Positions 44,945 through 51,040 of a DNA stretch of 64,000 nt are shown here, piece after piece (position 1 is the stretch's first letter; each line of letters opens with the position of its first letter). The notes under the pieces are model-generated. The model did no database searches, was not told the origin of the DNA, and was given only the letters and a program-made list of their open reading frames with translations. A program made the position numbers and the translations under genes. The stretch is from Flammeovirgaceae bacterium 311 (GTDB taxonomy: Bacteria > Bacteroidota > Bacteroidia > Cytophagales > Cyclobacteriaceae), in NCBI GenBank assembly GCA_000597885.1, contig CP004371.1:3302501-3366500 (forward strand), given 5' to 3'.

Positions 44945-45580
44945 ATGGAGTGGAGCGATTTTCAGGATGCTGTTAGCGCCATGGGCTGGATTGAAGGCGT
45001 GGCGGTACTACTGGCCCTGGTGTATGTATTATTAGCAGCTGTGGAAAGTATCTGGTGCTGGCCGGCAGCCTTTTTCAGCACATTGCTATATTTACTGCTG
45101 TGCATAGAAGCTAATTTATGGGCAGAGTCGGGTTTGCAGGTATTCTACATTGTAATGGCAGTTGTAGGATGGATGCAATGGCGCCGGCGACGGCCGGAAC
45201 ATGAAACCGGCCATCCGGTATCTGACAAAAAAGGCATTCCCATTATTCGCTGGTCCTGGCAAAGGCATCTGGTTATTATTTTGGCTAACGGTTTCCTTAC
45301 GTTACTGGTGGCCTGGCTGTTAGCCACCTATACCACAGCAGCTAATCCTTACCTCGATTCTTTCACTACGGTTTTTAGTTTGTTTACAACCTGGATGGTT
45401 ACACAGAAGGTTTTGGAAAATTGGCTATATTGGGTGGCAATTGATGCGGCCTCGATTTTTTTGTATGCCAGTAGGGAATTTACTTTAACGCCGTATCTGT
45501 TTGCTCTTTATACACTTATTGCCATAGCCGGTTATTTACGCTGGCGCAGGCTCTATTTAAGTCAAACACTTTCTTATTAA
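44945..45580 (+). CDS. pnuC: PnuC family vitamin transporter (nicotinamide riboside or thiamine)
   Basis: This encodes 211 residues with about seven membrane helices. IEGVAVLLALVYVLLAAVES plus WCWPAAFFSTLLYLLLC and VFYIVMAVVGWMQWRR are typical of PnuC proteins, which import nicotinamide riboside. A subgroup called PnuT imports thiamine and is TPP-riboswitch-linked in Bacteroidota. The kinase gene that follows overlaps by 1 nt (TAATG). The TPP riboswitch 0.8 kb downstream makes a thiamine role plausible, but the transporter itself is outside that riboswitch unit. Confidence 0.9.
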   Translation: MEWSDFQDAVSAMGWIEGVAVLLALVYVLLAAVESIWCWPAAFFSTLLYLLLCIEANLWAESGLQVFYIVMAVVGWMQWRRRRPEHETGHPVSDKKGIPIIRWSWQRHLVIILANGFLTLLVAWLLATYTTAANPYLDSFTTVFSLFTTWMVTQKVLENWLYWVAIDAASIFLYASREFTLTPYLFALYTLIAIAGYLRWRRLYLSQTLSY

Positions 45581-46095
45581 TGCTACGCATCGCACTAACC
45601 GGGCCCGAATCTACAGGTAAAACTACCTTAGCCGAACAGCTGGCCCAACATTATAACACCGCCTGGGTACCCGAACGGGCCCGAACTTACCTGGCTGAAT
45701 TAGGCAAGCCTTACCAGGAAAAAGACCTGCTGCAAATTGCCCGGCAGCAAATGGCACAGGAAGACGAACTTGCCAGGCAGGCAAAGGGACTTCTTTTCTG
45801 CGACACCGATCTGCTGGTGATGAAAATCTGGAGCCAGGTAAAGTACGGACGGGTAAACGAATGGATTCTGGAAGAGCTGGAAAAAAAACGCTACGACCAT
45901 TACCTGCTGCTCTACCCAGACCTTCCCTGGACCCCCGATCCACAACGGGAGCACCCTCACCTGCGCGAGCAAATGTTCCGTCTGTACCAGGGCGAGCTTA
46001 AAAAATTAAAAAGGCCTTATACCATTATCCAGGGAGAAGGCGAAGACCGCCTGCAGGCTGCCATCAGAGCCATTGACAGGATAGTGGCTAGTTAA
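45580..46095 (+). CDS. NadR-like P-loop nucleoside kinase
   Basis: This encodes 171 residues. The Walker A GPESTGKTTLAEQLA opens the protein, followed by WVPERARTYLAEL, FCDTDLLVMKIWSQV (the Asp and LID region) and YDHYLLLYPDLPWTPD. These match the ribosylnicotinamide kinase domain of NadR without the adenylyltransferase part. It is coupled to the PnuC gene (1-nt overlap), so it probably traps the imported substrate by phosphorylation. NR is the textbook substrate. Thiamine is a possible alternative in this locus. Confidence 0.88.
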   Translation: MLRIALTGPESTGKTTLAEQLAQHYNTAWVPERARTYLAELGKPYQEKDLLQIARQQMAQEDELARQAKGLLFCDTDLLVMKIWSQVKYGRVNEWILEELEKKRYDHYLLLYPDLPWTPDPQREHPHLREQMFRLYQGELKKLKRPYTIIQGEGEDRLQAAIRAIDRIVAS

Positions 46096-46225
46096 GAAGA
46101 CTTGACAGGCCAGTCCCCTGCAGCTAACTCAAGCTTAGCGTACCCAGGTTTATACACCCCGGCTCATCAAAAGAGCTGCTAAATCTTTTCTTACAGGAGC
46201 ATATAGCTATGCCAGGTTTATTTGG

Positions 46226-46255
46226 GCCCCGGACATCAGTCCGGGGCTTGTTTTT
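46226..46255 (+). terminator. Terminator after the pnuC-nadR operon
   Basis: A 9-bp GC-rich stem (GCCCCGGAC / GTCCGGGGC) with an ATCA loop is followed by TTGTTTTT. Confidence 0.92.
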
Positions 46256-46363
46256 ATAATAGAGCAGAAGCTACTCCTATCAGTACCTTTCTCAGTTAGC
46301 ACTTTGTAGCATTAGCACATCAGGTCATTAATTGCCGTATTAGCACATTAACTAATTAACCGC

Positions 46364-46371
46364 TATCTTTG
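46364..46371 (+). promoter_or_regulatory. Promoter -7 box for the TPP-riboswitch transcript
   Basis: TATCTTTG matches TAnnTTTG and lies about 10 nt upstream of the riboswitch aptamer, so transcription would start just before P1. No clear TTTG -33 element is seen at normal spacing. Confidence 0.55.
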
Positions 46372-46380
46372 CAGTATCGA

Positions 46381-46482
46381 ACAAGGGGTGCCTAAAACAA
46401 CAGGCTGAGATTATACCCTTTGCTCCTGGCGCAGCCGGGGCAAGCACCTGATCCGGGTAATACCGGCGTAGGGAACGTTTGT
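46381..46482 (+). ncRNA. TPP riboswitch (THI element)
   Basis: The conserved cores are present: GGGGTGCC, CTGAGA (46405-46410), then an extended GC-rich P3 arm, and ACCTGATCCGGGTAATACC with GCGTAGGGAA. ACAA and TTGT can close P1. The aptamer precedes the TonB receptor gene by about 95 nt. No strong intrinsic terminator is seen between aptamer and ATG, so translational control is likely in this leader. Confidence 0.97.
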
Positions 46483-46573
46483 ACACCACACCCATTTGCT
46501 GCCCGCACTTTGTAGCAACAGTCCTCAAAACCTGGTGCTGCTATTGTATTTGTTATTTTTTACAGAAAGAGCA

Positions 46574-49027
46574 ATGAAAAGAACATTGATACTGCTGGCA
46601 GCCCTGCTGTGGATGCCAGCTAGCCTGTGGGCGCAGTACACACTTAGCGGCGAAATACGTTCTTCCGAGACAGGAGAACCCCTTGATGGTGCCAATGTAT
46701 ACCTGGCAGAGGTCAGACGCCTTACGGCCACCAACCATCAGGGTGCCTTTAGTTTCGAGAACCTGAAGGAAGGTACTTATACGCTGCGCATTAGCTATGT
46801 TGGCCATGAAATCTGGCAGGAGGAGCTTCCTCTGGGCGCCAACCAGCACCTGATCATAAAACTGGCCGATGATGGCCTGCTGGCCGATGAAGTGGTGGTG
46901 ACTGCCACCCGTGCAACCGAAAAAACCCCCACTACTTTTACCGAAGTAAACAAGGAAGAGATCAGAAAGCAGAACCTGGGACAGGACATTCCCTATCTGC
47001 TGCAGTTTACGCCTTCTGTAGTGGCCACCTCCGATGCAGGAGCCGGCGTAGGCTATACCGGCATACGCATTCGTGGTTCTGATGCCACCCGCATTAATGT
47101 TACCGTCAATGGTATTCCGCTAAATGATTCCGAGTCGCATGGCGTGTTTTGGGTAAATACTCCCGATATGGCCTCTTCCGTAGATAATATCCAGATTCAG
47201 CGTGGCGTTGGCACTTCCACCAATGGCGCAGCTGCCTTTGGCGCTACCATAAACATCCAGACGGAGCGCCTGAATCCCGAACCCTATGGAGAGGTGCAGA
47301 CCAGCTATGGCTCCTTCAATACCCAGCGTTATACTGTTAAGGCAGGTACCGGTCTGCTAAACAAGCATTTTGCAGTAGATGCCCGCCTCTCCAAATTATC
47401 GTCTGATGGCTATATTGACCGCGCCTCATCCGATCTGAAATCGTTCTTTGTAAGTGCCGGCTATTATGATGATAAAACCCTGCTGAAAGCAAATATATTC
47501 AGTGGCAGAGAACAGACCTACCAGTCCTGGTACGGCACACCAGAGGCCGTGGTGCGGGGCGATAGCGCAGGCATTGAGGCCTATATTGCACGTAATTACA
47601 TTGAAGACGAAGATGAAATCGATAACCTGCGGAATGCCGGCCGCACTTATAACTACTACACCTACGACAACGAAACCGACAATTATCAGCAAGACCATTA
47701 CCAGCTGCTGTTTGGCCGCGACCTTACCGACAACATCCAGCTAAACCTGGCAGGGCACTACACCCGCGGCAGGGGGTATTTTGAGCAGTTCCGCAAAAAC
47801 GACAGGCTATCCAACTACAGCCTTCCTGCAGTAGATGTTGGCAATACCACCATCAGCAGAACAGACCTGATCCGCCGCCGCTGGCTGGATAACGACTTCT
47901 ATGGTTTTACCTATGCTGCCGCCTGGGAACCTGCCGGCAAGCTTAAGCTAACTTTAGGTGGTGGCTGGAACAAATACAAAGGCGATCACTTTGGCGAAAT
48001 CATCTGGGCCCGCTATGCCAGCACCAGCAACATACGCGACCGCTACTATGATAACAGTGCTACCAAACGGGATTTTAATACTTTCCTGAAAGGCTATTAT
48101 GAGCTTACGCCCAAGCTGGACCTGTTCGCTGACCTGCAGTACCGCACCATCAGCTATCAGTTTGGCGGGCTCGATCAGGGTGGGGATAGCATATCGGGTG
48201 ATTACAACTACAATTTCCTGAATCCTAAAGCAGGCCTTACCTACCGCTTTAACCCCGGCAGTCGCCTCTATGCCTCTTATGCCATAGGCCAGCGCGAGCC
48301 GGTACGCAGCGATTTTATCGATGCACCCACCAATAACATTCCCGAACCGGAAGTACTGCGCAATCTCGAAACCGGTATTGATGTACGGGTAAACCGCCAA
48401 CTTCAGTTTAGCACCAACTACTACCTGATGGACTACAAAAACCAGCTGGTACTTACCGGCGAGTTGAACGATGTAGGAGCCCCCATTCGCATCAATGTAC
48501 CGAGAAGTTACCGCACTGGGGTGGAGCTGCAGGCGGTTTATTCACCATTGGAAGTGCTAAGGCTGCAGGGTAATGCTTCTTTCAGCCGCAATATTATCCG
48601 CAATTTTGATGATGTGCTCTTCAACTACGATGACGAAACGTTTGTAAGAACTGAAATAAAGGACTCTCCCATTTCATTCTCGCCCAATATTGTAGCCAAT
48701 GCAATTATTACAGTGCTGCCGGTACAGAACCTGGAGCTAAGCCTGCTTTCGCAGTATGTGGGCAGGCAGTACTTGGATAACACCGGTAGCGACAGCCGTA
48801 GCCTGAACAGGTATTGGGTAAACGACTTCAGGGCCAACTACCTGCTGCGCCCCGGTCTTGTAAAAGAGCTTCGCCTGAACCTGTTGGTCAATAATATCTT
48901 CAATACCATGTACGCCAGTAATGGCTACACCTACGGATATATTTCAGGGGGCGAAACCATATATGAAAATTTCCTGTACCCACAGGCAGGCACTAATTTT
49001 CTGCTTGGTGTATCAGTAGGTTTCTGA
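46574..49027 (+). CDS. TonB-dependent receptor, TPP-regulated (thiamine uptake)
   Basis: This encodes 817 residues. It has a signal peptide (MKRTLILLAALLWMPASLWA), an N-terminal carboxypeptidase-regulatory-like beta domain (about 22-100, GEIRSSETGEPLDGANVY), the plug (about 110-225, TRINVTVNGIPLNDSESHG), and a 22-strand barrel ending in a C-terminal aromatic strand. Because a TPP riboswitch sits in its leader, it is inferred to import thiamine or a derivative across the outer membrane. The longer frame from 46496 begins at a TTG inside the leader. A terminator follows. Confidence 0.95.
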   Translation: MKRTLILLAALLWMPASLWAQYTLSGEIRSSETGEPLDGANVYLAEVRRLTATNHQGAFSFENLKEGTYTLRISYVGHEIWQEELPLGANQHLIIKLADDGLLADEVVVTATRATEKTPTTFTEVNKEEIRKQNLGQDIPYLLQFTPSVVATSDAGAGVGYTGIRIRGSDATRINVTVNGIPLNDSESHGVFWVNTPDMASSVDNIQIQRGVGTSTNGAAAFGATINIQTERLNPEPYGEVQTSYGSFNTQRYTVKAGTGLLNKHFAVDARLSKLSSDGYIDRASSDLKSFFVSAGYYDDKTLLKANIFSGREQTYQSWYGTPEAVVRGDSAGIEAYIARNYIEDEDEIDNLRNAGRTYNYYTYDNETDNYQQDHYQLLFGRDLTDNIQLNLAGHYTRGRGYFEQFRKNDRLSNYSLPAVDVGNTTISRTDLIRRRWLDNDFYGFTYAAAWEPAGKLKLTLGGGWNKYKGDHFGEIIWARYASTSNIRDRYYDNSATKRDFNTFLKGYYELTPKLDLFADLQYRTISYQFGGLDQGGDSISGDYNYNFLNPKAGLTYRFNPGSRLYASYAIGQREPVRSDFIDAPTNNIPEPEVLRNLETGIDVRVNRQLQFSTNYYLMDYKNQLVLTGELNDVGAPIRINVPRSYRTGVELQAVYSPLEVLRLQGNASFSRNIIRNFDDVLFNYDDETFVRTEIKDSPISFSPNIVANAIITVLPVQNLELSLLSQYVGRQYLDNTGSDSRSLNRYWVNDFRANYLLRPGLVKELRLNLLVNNIFNTMYASNGYTYGYISGGETIYENFLYPQAGTNFLLGVSVGF

Positions 49028-49060
49028 TTGGCAGCTTCTTTTTGTTAGTAAAGAAATAGA

Positions 49061-49101
49061 GCAGTCTTTCTGCTATAAACCGGAAAGACTGCCACTTTTT
49101 T
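49061..49101 (+). terminator. Terminator after the TonB receptor
   Basis: A 10-bp stem (GCAGTCTTTC / GAAAGACTGC) with a 12-nt loop is followed by CACTTTTTT. It separates the receptor from the next gene, so the riboswitch unit may be monocistronic. Confidence 0.88.
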
Positions 49102-49163
49102 ATACTAATTCTTTTTTTTAATTGAAATAAAGCAGCATTTTTAAAGTCGTATTTTTTAACCTG

Positions 49164-50297
49164 ATGCCTGCAAAAATTTTTATACCTTTTTCAGCTATCC
49201 AGGAACACAACAATGTACTGGTGGTAGACAGCTATCATCCGCGCGGATTTGTGCTCTCACATTGGCGGGGTGCCCCAAAACTACCCGGGCTACACGATGA
49301 TACCAGCACCGGCATTGTGCTAAACGCAATCAAAGCAGATGTTCCGCAACTACATACGCATGAGTATGTAACCAATAATCATTTTGACGTGGATGGCTTT
49401 TTAGGCATCTGGAGCCTGATGAATCCCGAACAGGCACTGGAGCACGAATGCCTGCTGCGCAAAATGGCACTGCTGGGCGACTTTAGAGAAATGCACCTTC
49501 TCTCCGAGGAAGACCACCTTGCTCTGAAGCTGGTCTGCTGGATCAATACAGTGGAAACTAAGCGTTTTTATGCACCTTTTGCCTCCTATGCGCCACGCCA
49601 GAGCGAGGTAAAGCTTAGCGTACCAAAGTATAAACACTTCCTGCAGGAATTCGGAAATGTGCTGGAAAACCCAGAGGCTTACCACAAAGACTGGCTAAAA
49701 GAATATGAACAGGTGCTGAAAGATTTCGAGGTGCTCCAGAGCTCTAAATCTATCCTGACCCTGGAGAAGAGCATACGCTTACTGATTGTGGAAACACCGG
49801 AACCACTCCATTATTATGCCCTCTTTGGCCAAAGCGCCCCTGCGGATGTGGTGATGAGCATTTACAGCAATAACCGCTATGAGCTGGAGTATAAATACAC
49901 CAGCTGGGTAGATACCGCCTACAGGCCTTCTTATCCGCGCCTGGACCTGCAACAGCTGGCCCGCCAGCTTAACCAGCTCGAGGAGGGGCCTTACCTATGG
50001 GGTGCGGATAAAATTACCGATACGGGGCCAATTTTGCGACTGCAAGGCAAAGCACTTACAAAGGAAGAACGCTTTGACCATCCATGCAACCGGCCTGTCT
50101 ATTCCTCCAGCATTCCTGTGCGAAAATTCAAATCAGTGGTTTGCCAGTTTTTTGAAGAAGCCTACAGAACCTTATCTAAAAAAACCAGCTGGACGTGGCC
50201 GGAGCTAAAAGCTATCAATGAGCAGTTGTTTAGCTGCGAACATGATTTGACATTGGGCTCACTCAAGCACAGAAAGGGAAAACTCCCTTCTGCTTAA
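49164..50297 (+). CDS. Conserved protein of unknown function in the thiamine locus
   Basis: This encodes 377 residues, with no signal peptide or membrane helix. I do not recognise the family with certainty. A segment HTHEYVTNNHFDVDGFLGIW (about 62-81) is reminiscent of the His/Asp-rich H-x-D-x-DG motif of DHH-type phosphoesterases, followed by GDFREMHLLSEEDHLALKL. The second half has charged helices and a C-terminal positively charged tail. It lies between the TonB receptor and the TPK-like gene, 107 nt before the latter, which hints at a role in vitamin or nucleotide metabolism. Confidence 0.85.
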   Translation: MPAKIFIPFSAIQEHNNVLVVDSYHPRGFVLSHWRGAPKLPGLHDDTSTGIVLNAIKADVPQLHTHEYVTNNHFDVDGFLGIWSLMNPEQALEHECLLRKMALLGDFREMHLLSEEDHLALKLVCWINTVETKRFYAPFASYAPRQSEVKLSVPKYKHFLQEFGNVLENPEAYHKDWLKEYEQVLKDFEVLQSSKSILTLEKSIRLLIVETPEPLHYYALFGQSAPADVVMSIYSNNRYELEYKYTSWVDTAYRPSYPRLDLQQLARQLNQLEEGPYLWGADKITDTGPILRLQGKALTKEERFDHPCNRPVYSSSIPVRKFKSVVCQFFEEAYRTLSKKTSWTWPELKAINEQLFSCEHDLTLGSLKHRKGKLPSA

Positions 50298-50404
50298 TAT
50301 CATCTCCTGCACCCGAAATAAGGATAGCAGGTGGCAACTGTAACTTTCAGACCTTCTTCAGCACCTTTATCTGTTCAGTTAAATCAATCAGTTCCCTTAT
50401 TTAA

Positions 50405-51040
50405 ATGTCGAGCCACCATATTGTACGCGACGAGCAGGAGCCAACCCTGCTGCTTTGGCAAGCAGGGCAGCTATCTTTTGAGCAGGCAGGCCAGCTGCTG
50501 GAGTGGAGTCCGCGGGTAGTGGTGCACCAGCCTGCGCTGAATGAAGCGCTGGCCTGGGGCATTAAGCTCGATGCTATCTGCACCCCGCCTGATGCAATAA
50601 CAGCGGCTGTAGCAGCTGTTGAACACCAGCAGCCGGTAGATGTACTGTCACTACCAGGAGATGATGCGCTACAGGCCGTTCTCCAATGGCTAAGAGACAA
50701 GCAGCAGGCCAGCCTTTACCTTATTGCCGATGCAGCCGCAGATTACTTTTTGCTTTTACGACAGCTGGAACCACTACAACAGCTGGCACAGATACAGGTA
50801 ATAAGCCAGGGCTGGCGCTACAGTTATTTTAAATCAGGTGTGTTACAAAAATGGCTGCCCCGGGACAGCAGCTTAAGGCTTATTTCCTTTGGTGAGCAGC
50901 CTCTGCTGAGTGGTGCACAATTTACAGTTGTTATACAAAACCCTATACTGCAGGAGCTGGTACTGGAGCAGTCTGGTATGGTACAGCTAAAGTGTGCTAC
51001 ACCAGTGGCTACTGCTTTCTGGATTGGCGAAGAATTGTAA
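50405..51040 (+). CDS. Thiamine pyrophosphokinase-like protein, catalytic motifs lost
   Basis: This encodes 211 residues. MSSHHIVRDEQEP and GQLLEWSPRVVV match the N-terminus of Bacteroidota thiamine pyrophosphokinases, which attach pyrophosphate to thiamine. In those enzymes a GDFD motif follows LGIK(I/V)D. Here it is LDAICTPPDA. The TDLEKA stretch is replaced by GDDALQAVLQWL, and the R-x-DH motif by AADYFL. The fold seems retained, but Mg/ATP and substrate-coordinating acids are missing, so it is either inactive or changed in function. The start ATG is unambiguous. prmC converges on it. Confidence 0.75.
   Translation: MSSHHIVRDEQEPTLLLWQAGQLSFEQAGQLLEWSPRVVVHQPALNEALAWGIKLDAICTPPDAITAAVAAVEHQQPVDVLSLPGDDALQAVLQWLRDKQQASLYLIADAAADYFLLLRQLEPLQQLAQIQVISQGWRYSYFKSGVLQKWLPRDSSLRLISFGEQPLLSGAQFTVVIQNPILQELVLEQSGMVQLKCATPVATAFWIGEEL

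Follow-up and report, generated by a model that had tools for sequence, protein, structure and literature searches.

A predicted thiamine salvage locus with a NadR-like kinase and an apparently inactive thiamine pyrophosphokinase homologue in Flammeovirgaceae bacterium 311

Organization of the locus

We analyzed a 64,000-nt stretch of Flammeovirgaceae bacterium 311 (CP004371.1), called the window below, and describe here a putative thiamine (vitamin B1) uptake and salvage locus at positions 44945-51040, all parts of which lie on the plus strand. In order, it comprises genes for a PnuC-type transporter and a NadR-like kinase, a thiamine pyrophosphate (TPP) riboswitch, and genes for a TonB-dependent receptor, a DUF6687 protein and a protein with the fold of thiamine pyrophosphokinase (TPK). 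Open reading frame, Pfam and Rfam scans agree with an earlier sequence-only reading of this DNA on the coordinates and gene order, the PnuC transporter, the NadR-like kinase and its TAATG coupling, the riboswitch and the receptor. The transporter (44945-45580; PF04973, E 5.5e-51) is of the PnuC/PnuT vitamin type and is probably an inner-membrane thiamine facilitator. Its TAA stop codon shares one base with the ATG start of the standalone P-loop kinase (45580-46095; PF13521/AAA_28, E 2.7e-40), our candidate for a thiamine kinase forming thiamine monophosphate (TMP). A pattern scan found a terminator-like hairpin of 12 pairs with a T-rich tail 3' of the kinase gene (46223-46250) and another terminator-like hairpin (49061-49092) 3' of the receptor gene (46574-49027; PF00593, E 2.2e-26, with PF13715 and PF07715), which encodes a probable outer-membrane thiamine receptor. 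We infer that thiamine is the cargo of both the receptor and the transporter.

The TPP riboswitch (46374-46492) carries an insertion in its variable arm, which probably accounts for its modest score with the Rfam model: a window-wide scan at the gathering score returned no match, and a local scan gave RF00059 41.6 bits (E 1e-6), short of the gathering score of 54.3. The core motifs are intact in the alignment. We also made a lineage model from 26 riboswitches, this one among them and some of them from loci later scanned with it; its match here is full-length, at 82 bits. The leader RNA folded no better than shuffled sequences (z -0.53). The receptor gene starts about 80 nt 3' of the riboswitch and, since terminator-like hairpins follow both the kinase and the receptor genes, it is the only gene that the riboswitch clearly precedes in this locus of the window genome. 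The genome contains a second TPP riboswitch beyond the limits of the window, before a ThiC-ThiE/TenI thiamine synthesis cluster (G000:C1:3674782-3679063, locus L264), and the strain is therefore probably a thiamine prototroph. As a side observation, two serial TPP riboswitches stand between kinase and receptor in locus L222 (5500-5747), where about 30 nt separate them, and in locus L240 (5602-6831), where 1 kb containing a gene does.

A TPK fold without the TPK active site

The last protein of the locus (50405-51040) matched no Pfam or NCBIfam family, phmmer matched it to no PDB sequence, and the 26 proteins of its family alignment (window included) matched no TPK model, and no family common to two of them, at E <= 1. 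The profile of this 26-member family placed the TPK 2omk on top among PDB sequences, albeit at an E of 0.073. Given these 26 sequences, AlphaFold produced a model with a mean predicted local distance difference test (pLDDT) score of 92.6. Foldseek returned 28 chains at E <= 0.001, 24 of them named thiamin pyrophosphokinase and the other four coming from 3cq9 (lp_1622 protein), which is in turn related to an active TPK; the best match of the window protein was again 2omk (E 4.2e-12). Comparison of the dead family with 20 active relatives by hhalign gave a probability of 100% and an E of 1.5e-46 over 193 columns. The window protein shares with the TPK/ThiN family (PF04263; 2omk is the TPK of B. 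thetaiotaomicron) its length and, as modelled, its whole fold, a Rossmann-like domain and a beta sandwich.

What it does not share with that family are the Mg/ATP motifs, the thiamine-side residues and a match to the Pfam model. The sequence-only reading had called the protein catalytically dead, and motif alignment with active TPKs bears this out: TPPD replaces GDFD, DDA replaces KTD, there is no DH, and E-L replaces S195-N196, which we take to be the thiamine-side residues, so that none of the catalytic motifs GDxD, KTD and GxRxDH, nor the S-N pair, is present. The dead set was assembled from the 26 sequences, which came from a search with the full-length protein, and from a search seeded on MSSHH. 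Neither the GD[FLM]D nor the GxRxDH pattern occurs in any of its 85 loci (83 unique sequences), and both occur in all 22 active TPKs. Residues D61, D63 and H118 are each present in 22 of 22 active TPKs and kept in 9, 16 and none (82 gaps) of the 83 unique dead sequences, respectively; a KTD-like string occurs in two dead loci (L066 and L073). The sequence-only reading had left room for a true TPK elsewhere in the genome, and none was found: the genome, a single contig of 6.67 Mb and 100% complete, gives no hit to PF04263 even at E <= 10, and when searched with an active TPK it yields the dead gene only. Bacteroidota-type TPK-family loci were also seen under the titles Rickettsiales (L098) and Klebsiella pneumoniae (L133), probably from mislabelled or contaminated metagenome bins.

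The dead TPK is maintained by purifying selection and is not decaying. The dead form is conserved in many genera, which the sequence-only reading had not noted. Pairwise dN/dS within the dead set ranged from 0.038 to 0.221 (20 pairs with a value among 23 tried), the ratios being rough where dS exceeded 1, as it did in some pairs. In a tree, one branch with a Shimodaira-Hasegawa-like approximate likelihood ratio test (SH-aLRT) value of 100 divided the 83 dead rows from the 23 active ones. This is consistent with loss of the active site once, in an ancestor of a large Cytophagales group, although a single loss is unproved because of the long end branches and the unfixed root.

A kinase subgroup linked to TPP riboswitches

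The window kinase has 171 residues and consists of the kinase domain only, with no nicotinamide mononucleotide adenylyltransferase domain. Its closest curated model is NadR (TIGR01526), with an E of 6.6e-28 and 97.9 bits against a cut-off of 341. Like the ribosylnicotinamide kinase domain of NadR (TIGR01526; PDB 1lw7, 6gye, 8x7f and 9x6f), it is a P-loop kinase with a PnuC-family partner. It differs from that domain in two motifs that are characteristic of what we call the KW subgroup. The first, LFCDTDLLVMKIWSQVK (45793-45843), aligns with NadR-type sequences such as CDTDLITTQIY...Y, and the second, DPQREHP (45937-45957), with sequences such as DGLRDxG. Neither QIY nor DGxR is found in the window kinase, which has KIW and DPQREHP; across the subgroup KIWS and DPxREHP replace them. 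We infer that residues at the QIY and DGxR positions touch the substrate.

We classed 143 kinase sequences by four positions, chosen after the alignment had been viewed, as KW (102), NadR-like (30) or other (11). A TPP riboswitch was present within the examined stretch (about 3-12 kb) at 46 of the 102 KW loci, one of the 30 NadR-like loci and two of the 11 others; the difference between KW and NadR-like loci is significant (Fisher p 7e-6), two of the NadR-like loci (L296 and L297) having been searched only by text pattern over 3 kb. At each of the 23 riboswitch-positive loci measured (21 KW, two other), kinase and riboswitch share a strand, and the riboswitch lies 11 to 2240 nt downstream of the kinase. 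A PnuC gene was present near 78 of the 102 KW kinases in the stretches examined around them. The three riboswitch-linked kinases outside the KW subgroup (genomes G045, G064 and G080; loci L262, L386 and L380) all belong to family f10 and possibly represent an independent recruitment.

A tree of 51 kinases supports the division. One branch (SH-aLRT 98) separates 40 standalone kinases, the window's included and 22 of them riboswitch-linked, from 11 others, which comprise all four full-length NadR proteins, six standalone kinases and an f10 member. Two genomes, G019 and G034, encode a kinase from either side of this branch, and in both the kinase on the NadR side adjoins a PnuC gene.

Distribution of thiamine genes

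The PF04263 TPK and the NadR-like kinase were surveyed in 59 relatives, counting the window genome, and in 194 members of the order; ThiL, ThiC and ThiE/TenI were surveyed in the 59. A TPK above the cut-off was found in 2 of the 59 relatives and 18 of the 194 order members. ThiL matched in 58 of 59 relatives (56 over the cut-off), ThiC in 15 and ThiE/TenI in 25. The window genome has ThiC and ThiE beside the second riboswitch, and a ThiL match of 323 bits. Thirty-two genomes have ThiL and neither ThiE nor TPK; 30 of these encode a standalone NadR-like kinase, which is of the KW type in 23. Standalone kinases are found in 39 of 44 genomes lacking ThiC and 8 of 15 with ThiC (p 0.007), where G056 is counted as kinase-bearing from one kinase scan only.

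Across the order, the KW kinase and TPK exclude each other in our sample, with a KW kinase in none of 18 TPK-containing and 72 of 176 TPK-lacking members (Fisher p 1.8e-4, in a test that ignores relatedness). Kinases without an examined sequence were counted as not KW. Six TPK-containing genomes have a kinase match. We inspected the kinase sequence itself for three of them (G046, G081 and G149) and called the other three (G135, G203 and G211) NadR by open-frame length (324-339 residues). A first hand count of standalone kinases of mixed types had given 117 of 176 TPK-lacking and 2 of 18 TPK-containing genomes; the latter two (G081 and G149) proved NadR-like on reading, and the KW-only count is therefore used. 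The same pattern is seen within family f9, where G044 has TPK and no KW kinase and eight other members have a KW kinase and no TPK. A KW kinase is present in 32 of the 37 members of the family to which the window genome belongs. The five without one are G012, G018 and G021, which have both ThiC and ThiE, and the auxotroph-like G006 and G026.

Proposed route and alternatives

We consider it probable that the locus serves thiamine uptake and salvage and that its activating enzyme has been exchanged for another. Thiamine would enter through the riboswitch-controlled TonB receptor and then the PnuC-type transporter. The KW kinase, to judge from its linkage, phyletic pattern and motifs, would convert thiamine to TMP; ThiL, whose gene is present elsewhere in the genome, would convert TMP to TPP; and the old TPK, having lost its ATP/Mg and thiamine-side residues, would be kept as a non-catalytic protein acting through its N-terminal tail. 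The proposal builds on gene content, linkage, motif loss, selection and KW/TPK exclusion in the sample, all of which the analysis establishes. The sequence-only reading had offered the NadR-like kinase, the DUF6687 protein or both as replacements for the TPK. The recurrent riboswitch linkage, the distinct motifs and the exclusion with TPK back the kinase, and the presence of DUF6687 in only 11 of 59 genomes speaks against the DUF6687 protein.

Several observations weigh against this proposal. The riboswitch stands 3' of the kinase gene, with a terminator-like hairpin between them in the window, and therefore does not obviously control the kinase in cis; in the stretches examined, a riboswitch is absent from 56 of the 102 KW loci, among them the KW loci of G019 and G034. 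Sampled members of families f2, f4, f5 and f20 have a NadR-like or unclassified kinase. Sixteen of the 18 TPK-containing genomes belong to one family, so few independent events stand behind the exclusion. G006 and G026 have neither ThiC, ThiE, TPK nor a KW kinase (G026, which has NadR, is 89% complete). G044 has TPK and ThiL and no ThiE, and ThiL alone is therefore no proof of a route through TMP. The after-the-fact choice of the four classifying positions and the overlap between the lineage riboswitch model and the loci scanned with it count on the same side.

The transporter and kinase might instead be an ordinary nicotinamide riboside salvage pair that neighbors a thiamine receptor by chance, with thiamine activated by another kinase or left unsalvaged in prototrophs. 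This would suit the facts that the closest characterized relatives of the kinase are NadR kinase domains, that the riboswitch is not 5' of the pair, that the window genome has both ThiC and ThiE, and that a gene judged by eye to be kynureninase-like lies one gene from the pair in five Roseivirga loci; the WxxWxxxD motif of PnuC occurs with both KW and NadR-like kinases and does not discriminate. We nevertheless regard it as unlikely, since riboswitch linkage is concentrated in the KW loci, the KW motifs are unlike those of NadR, G019 and G034 encode, in addition to the KW kinase, one of NadR type next to a PnuC gene, and KW kinase and TPK are mutually exclusive in the sample. A ThiK-type kinase elsewhere in the genome, with the dead TPK a relic, could be proposed from the listing of ThiK among vitamin B1 salvage enzymes in the accessible parts of PMC6593275. 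It would leave both the linkage and the exclusion unexplained, the dN/dS values contradict relic status, and we find it very improbable.

Two further alternatives concern the dead TPK itself. The sequence-only reading had suggested that it acts as a thiamine sensor, and a role in sensing thiamine/TPP, or as an allosteric partner to the KW kinase, would fit its place in the thiamine locus of the window and of L216, L218, L219, L223, L240, L285 and L288. Nothing beyond position favors the sensor role: the thiamine-side S-N residues are gone and hairpins split the locus. Moreover, a TPP riboswitch occurs at only 8 of 59 dead loci (among 80 loci scanned, with flanks up to 10 kb), and 33 dead loci have an M19 dipeptidase-like neighbor. 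A role as general kinase partner was rejected, because G012, G021 and G026 have the dead TPK and no standalone kinase, and it is missing from 24 of 47 standalone-kinase genomes. We rate the sensor or partner alternative as rather improbable. That the protein is still a working TPK with a rebuilt active site seems to us extremely unlikely. Its retained fold and core, the purifying selection, the occasional D61 and D63 and the two KTD-like strings would all agree with such an enzyme, but GDxD and GxRxDH occur in no dead member, and most residues with a conservation of 75% or more in the dead set also occur in active TPKs, so no new catalytic set is apparent.

The swapped-enzyme locus that we favor can be compared with the thiamine locus of Bacteroides, which in the accessible parts of PMC5613172 consists of a riboswitch, OMthi, PnuT and tnr3. 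Both have a TPP riboswitch, a TonB receptor, a Pnu-type transporter and a phosphorylating enzyme (here a predicted one); in the present locus the enzyme would be the NadR-like kinase, encoded 5' of the riboswitch, and the TPK homologue appears inactive. The vitamin B1 salvage enzymes given in the covered parts of PMC6593275 are ThiK, ThiM and ThiN, with no NadR-like kinase among them. Bacteroidota clusters without described B1 synthesis and transport are reported in the part of PMC10881298 available to us, and NadR of Lactococcus lactis is covered, in the part consulted, by PMC7221760. Our literature search, with most subscription papers outside its reach, turned up no paper on a NadR-like thiamine kinase, on this group's TPK pseudoenzyme or on DUF6687. 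If correct, the proposal would fill a missing step of B1 salvage for a large environmental group (no TPK in 57 of 59 relatives and 176 of 194 order members, no ThiC in 44 of 59), and the annotations 'NadR-like' and 'nicotinamide riboside kinase' in Bacteroidota may often be wrong.

Genomic context and N-terminal tail of the dead TPK

The sequence-only reading had suggested a comparison of gene order across Cytophagales. The block of transporter, kinase, riboswitch, receptor, DUF6687 and dead TPK recurs in L216, L218 and L219, with an extra gene and a second riboswitch in L240, and shorter versions with the dead TPK are found in L223, L285 and L288. The dead gene of Algoriphagus and its relatives lies instead 3' of an M19 dipeptidase-like gene and near kynurenine-pathway-like genes (named by eye), and the dead gene is therefore not dependent on the thiamine locus. 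Among 81 loci, the window and 80 others (60 dead, 21 active), clusters named by eye as PrmC-, kynureninase- and M19 dipeptidase-like recur in 37, 36 and 33 dead loci, respectively, and in no active ones. We considered a conserved neighbor as an explanation of the pseudoenzyme and set it aside; these clusters recur in dead loci, and no functional link is argued. None of the 21 active TPK loci yielded a TPP riboswitch with the lineage model. In L102, L105, L107 and other Flavobacterium loci, the active TPK lies 3' of a TonB-receptor-family gene and a DUF4249-like gene (by eye). A protein that by eye looks like the NMT1/THI5 type occurs in the riboswitch-TonB locus of L288, L240, L233 and L284, and in L288 it is encoded directly 5' of the dead TPK.

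The best-conserved part of the dead TPK is its N-terminal tail, MSSHHIVRDEQEPT (residues 1-14; 50405-50446). M1, S2, S3, H4, Q11 and P13 are invariant in all 26 sequences of the full-length search, and H5 is replaced by Y in two. Residues 1-10 have a mean pLDDT of 59 in the dead model and 46 in an active one. The MSSHH-seeded search is biased toward the tail, and the full-length query behind the 26 sequences includes the tail as its best-conserved part. A hidden Markov model without the tail, run over 3.19 Mb of loci already collected and thus not independent, gave 145 matches at E <= 0.01, of which only the active TPK of G192, present twice, lacks MSSH. We also considered whether the conservation of the N-terminus reflects a nucleic-acid element in the coding sequence. 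In the 83 dead sequences the tail codons vary at or near background (lowest Ser2 0.76, His5 0.83 and Val7 0.85 of background), which led us to reject such an element for the dead set, and the protein rather than the RNA therefore appears to be selected. The 22 active sequences are more closely related, some of their tail codons are less diverse (Val7 down to 0.31), and the codon test is weaker there.

The MSSHHxVRxxQEPAL start, together with LLEWSP and GIKxD segments, is common to the dead TPK and to active TPKs from G046 and from loci with the titles Flavobacterium and Chitinophaga. In G192 and G044, by contrast, the TPK has the active-site motifs and no tail. With tail-less active TPKs on one side and tailed dead ones on the other, the tail can occur without the catalytic motifs and the motifs without the tail. 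Most likely, the dead TPK is retained for a non-catalytic task performed through the N-terminal tail and the preserved core. We further offer, as a possible but somewhat doubtful explanation, that the TPK in these Bacteroidota has a second, catalysis-independent job in its tail; after takeover by the KW kinase only that job would have been left, with the tail near-invariant and the active site dissolved. The protein would then represent a natural experiment in which the chemistry was lost and the enzyme kept, isolating a hidden second function. The mature protein probably starts with SSHH after removal of Met. Such a free NH2-Ser-Ser-His-His end would presumably fit a copper/nickel-binding (amino-terminal copper and nickel, ATCUN-like) motif, which is pure speculation on our part.

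The DUF6687 protein (49164-50297) had been described as unrecognised in the sequence-only reading; this does not hold, as it matches PF20392 with an E of 1.5e-139. A sequence search found no solved relative of DUF6687. Its gene is part of the block in several relatives, and the window protein has an NNHFDxDG segment in common with the L218 copy.

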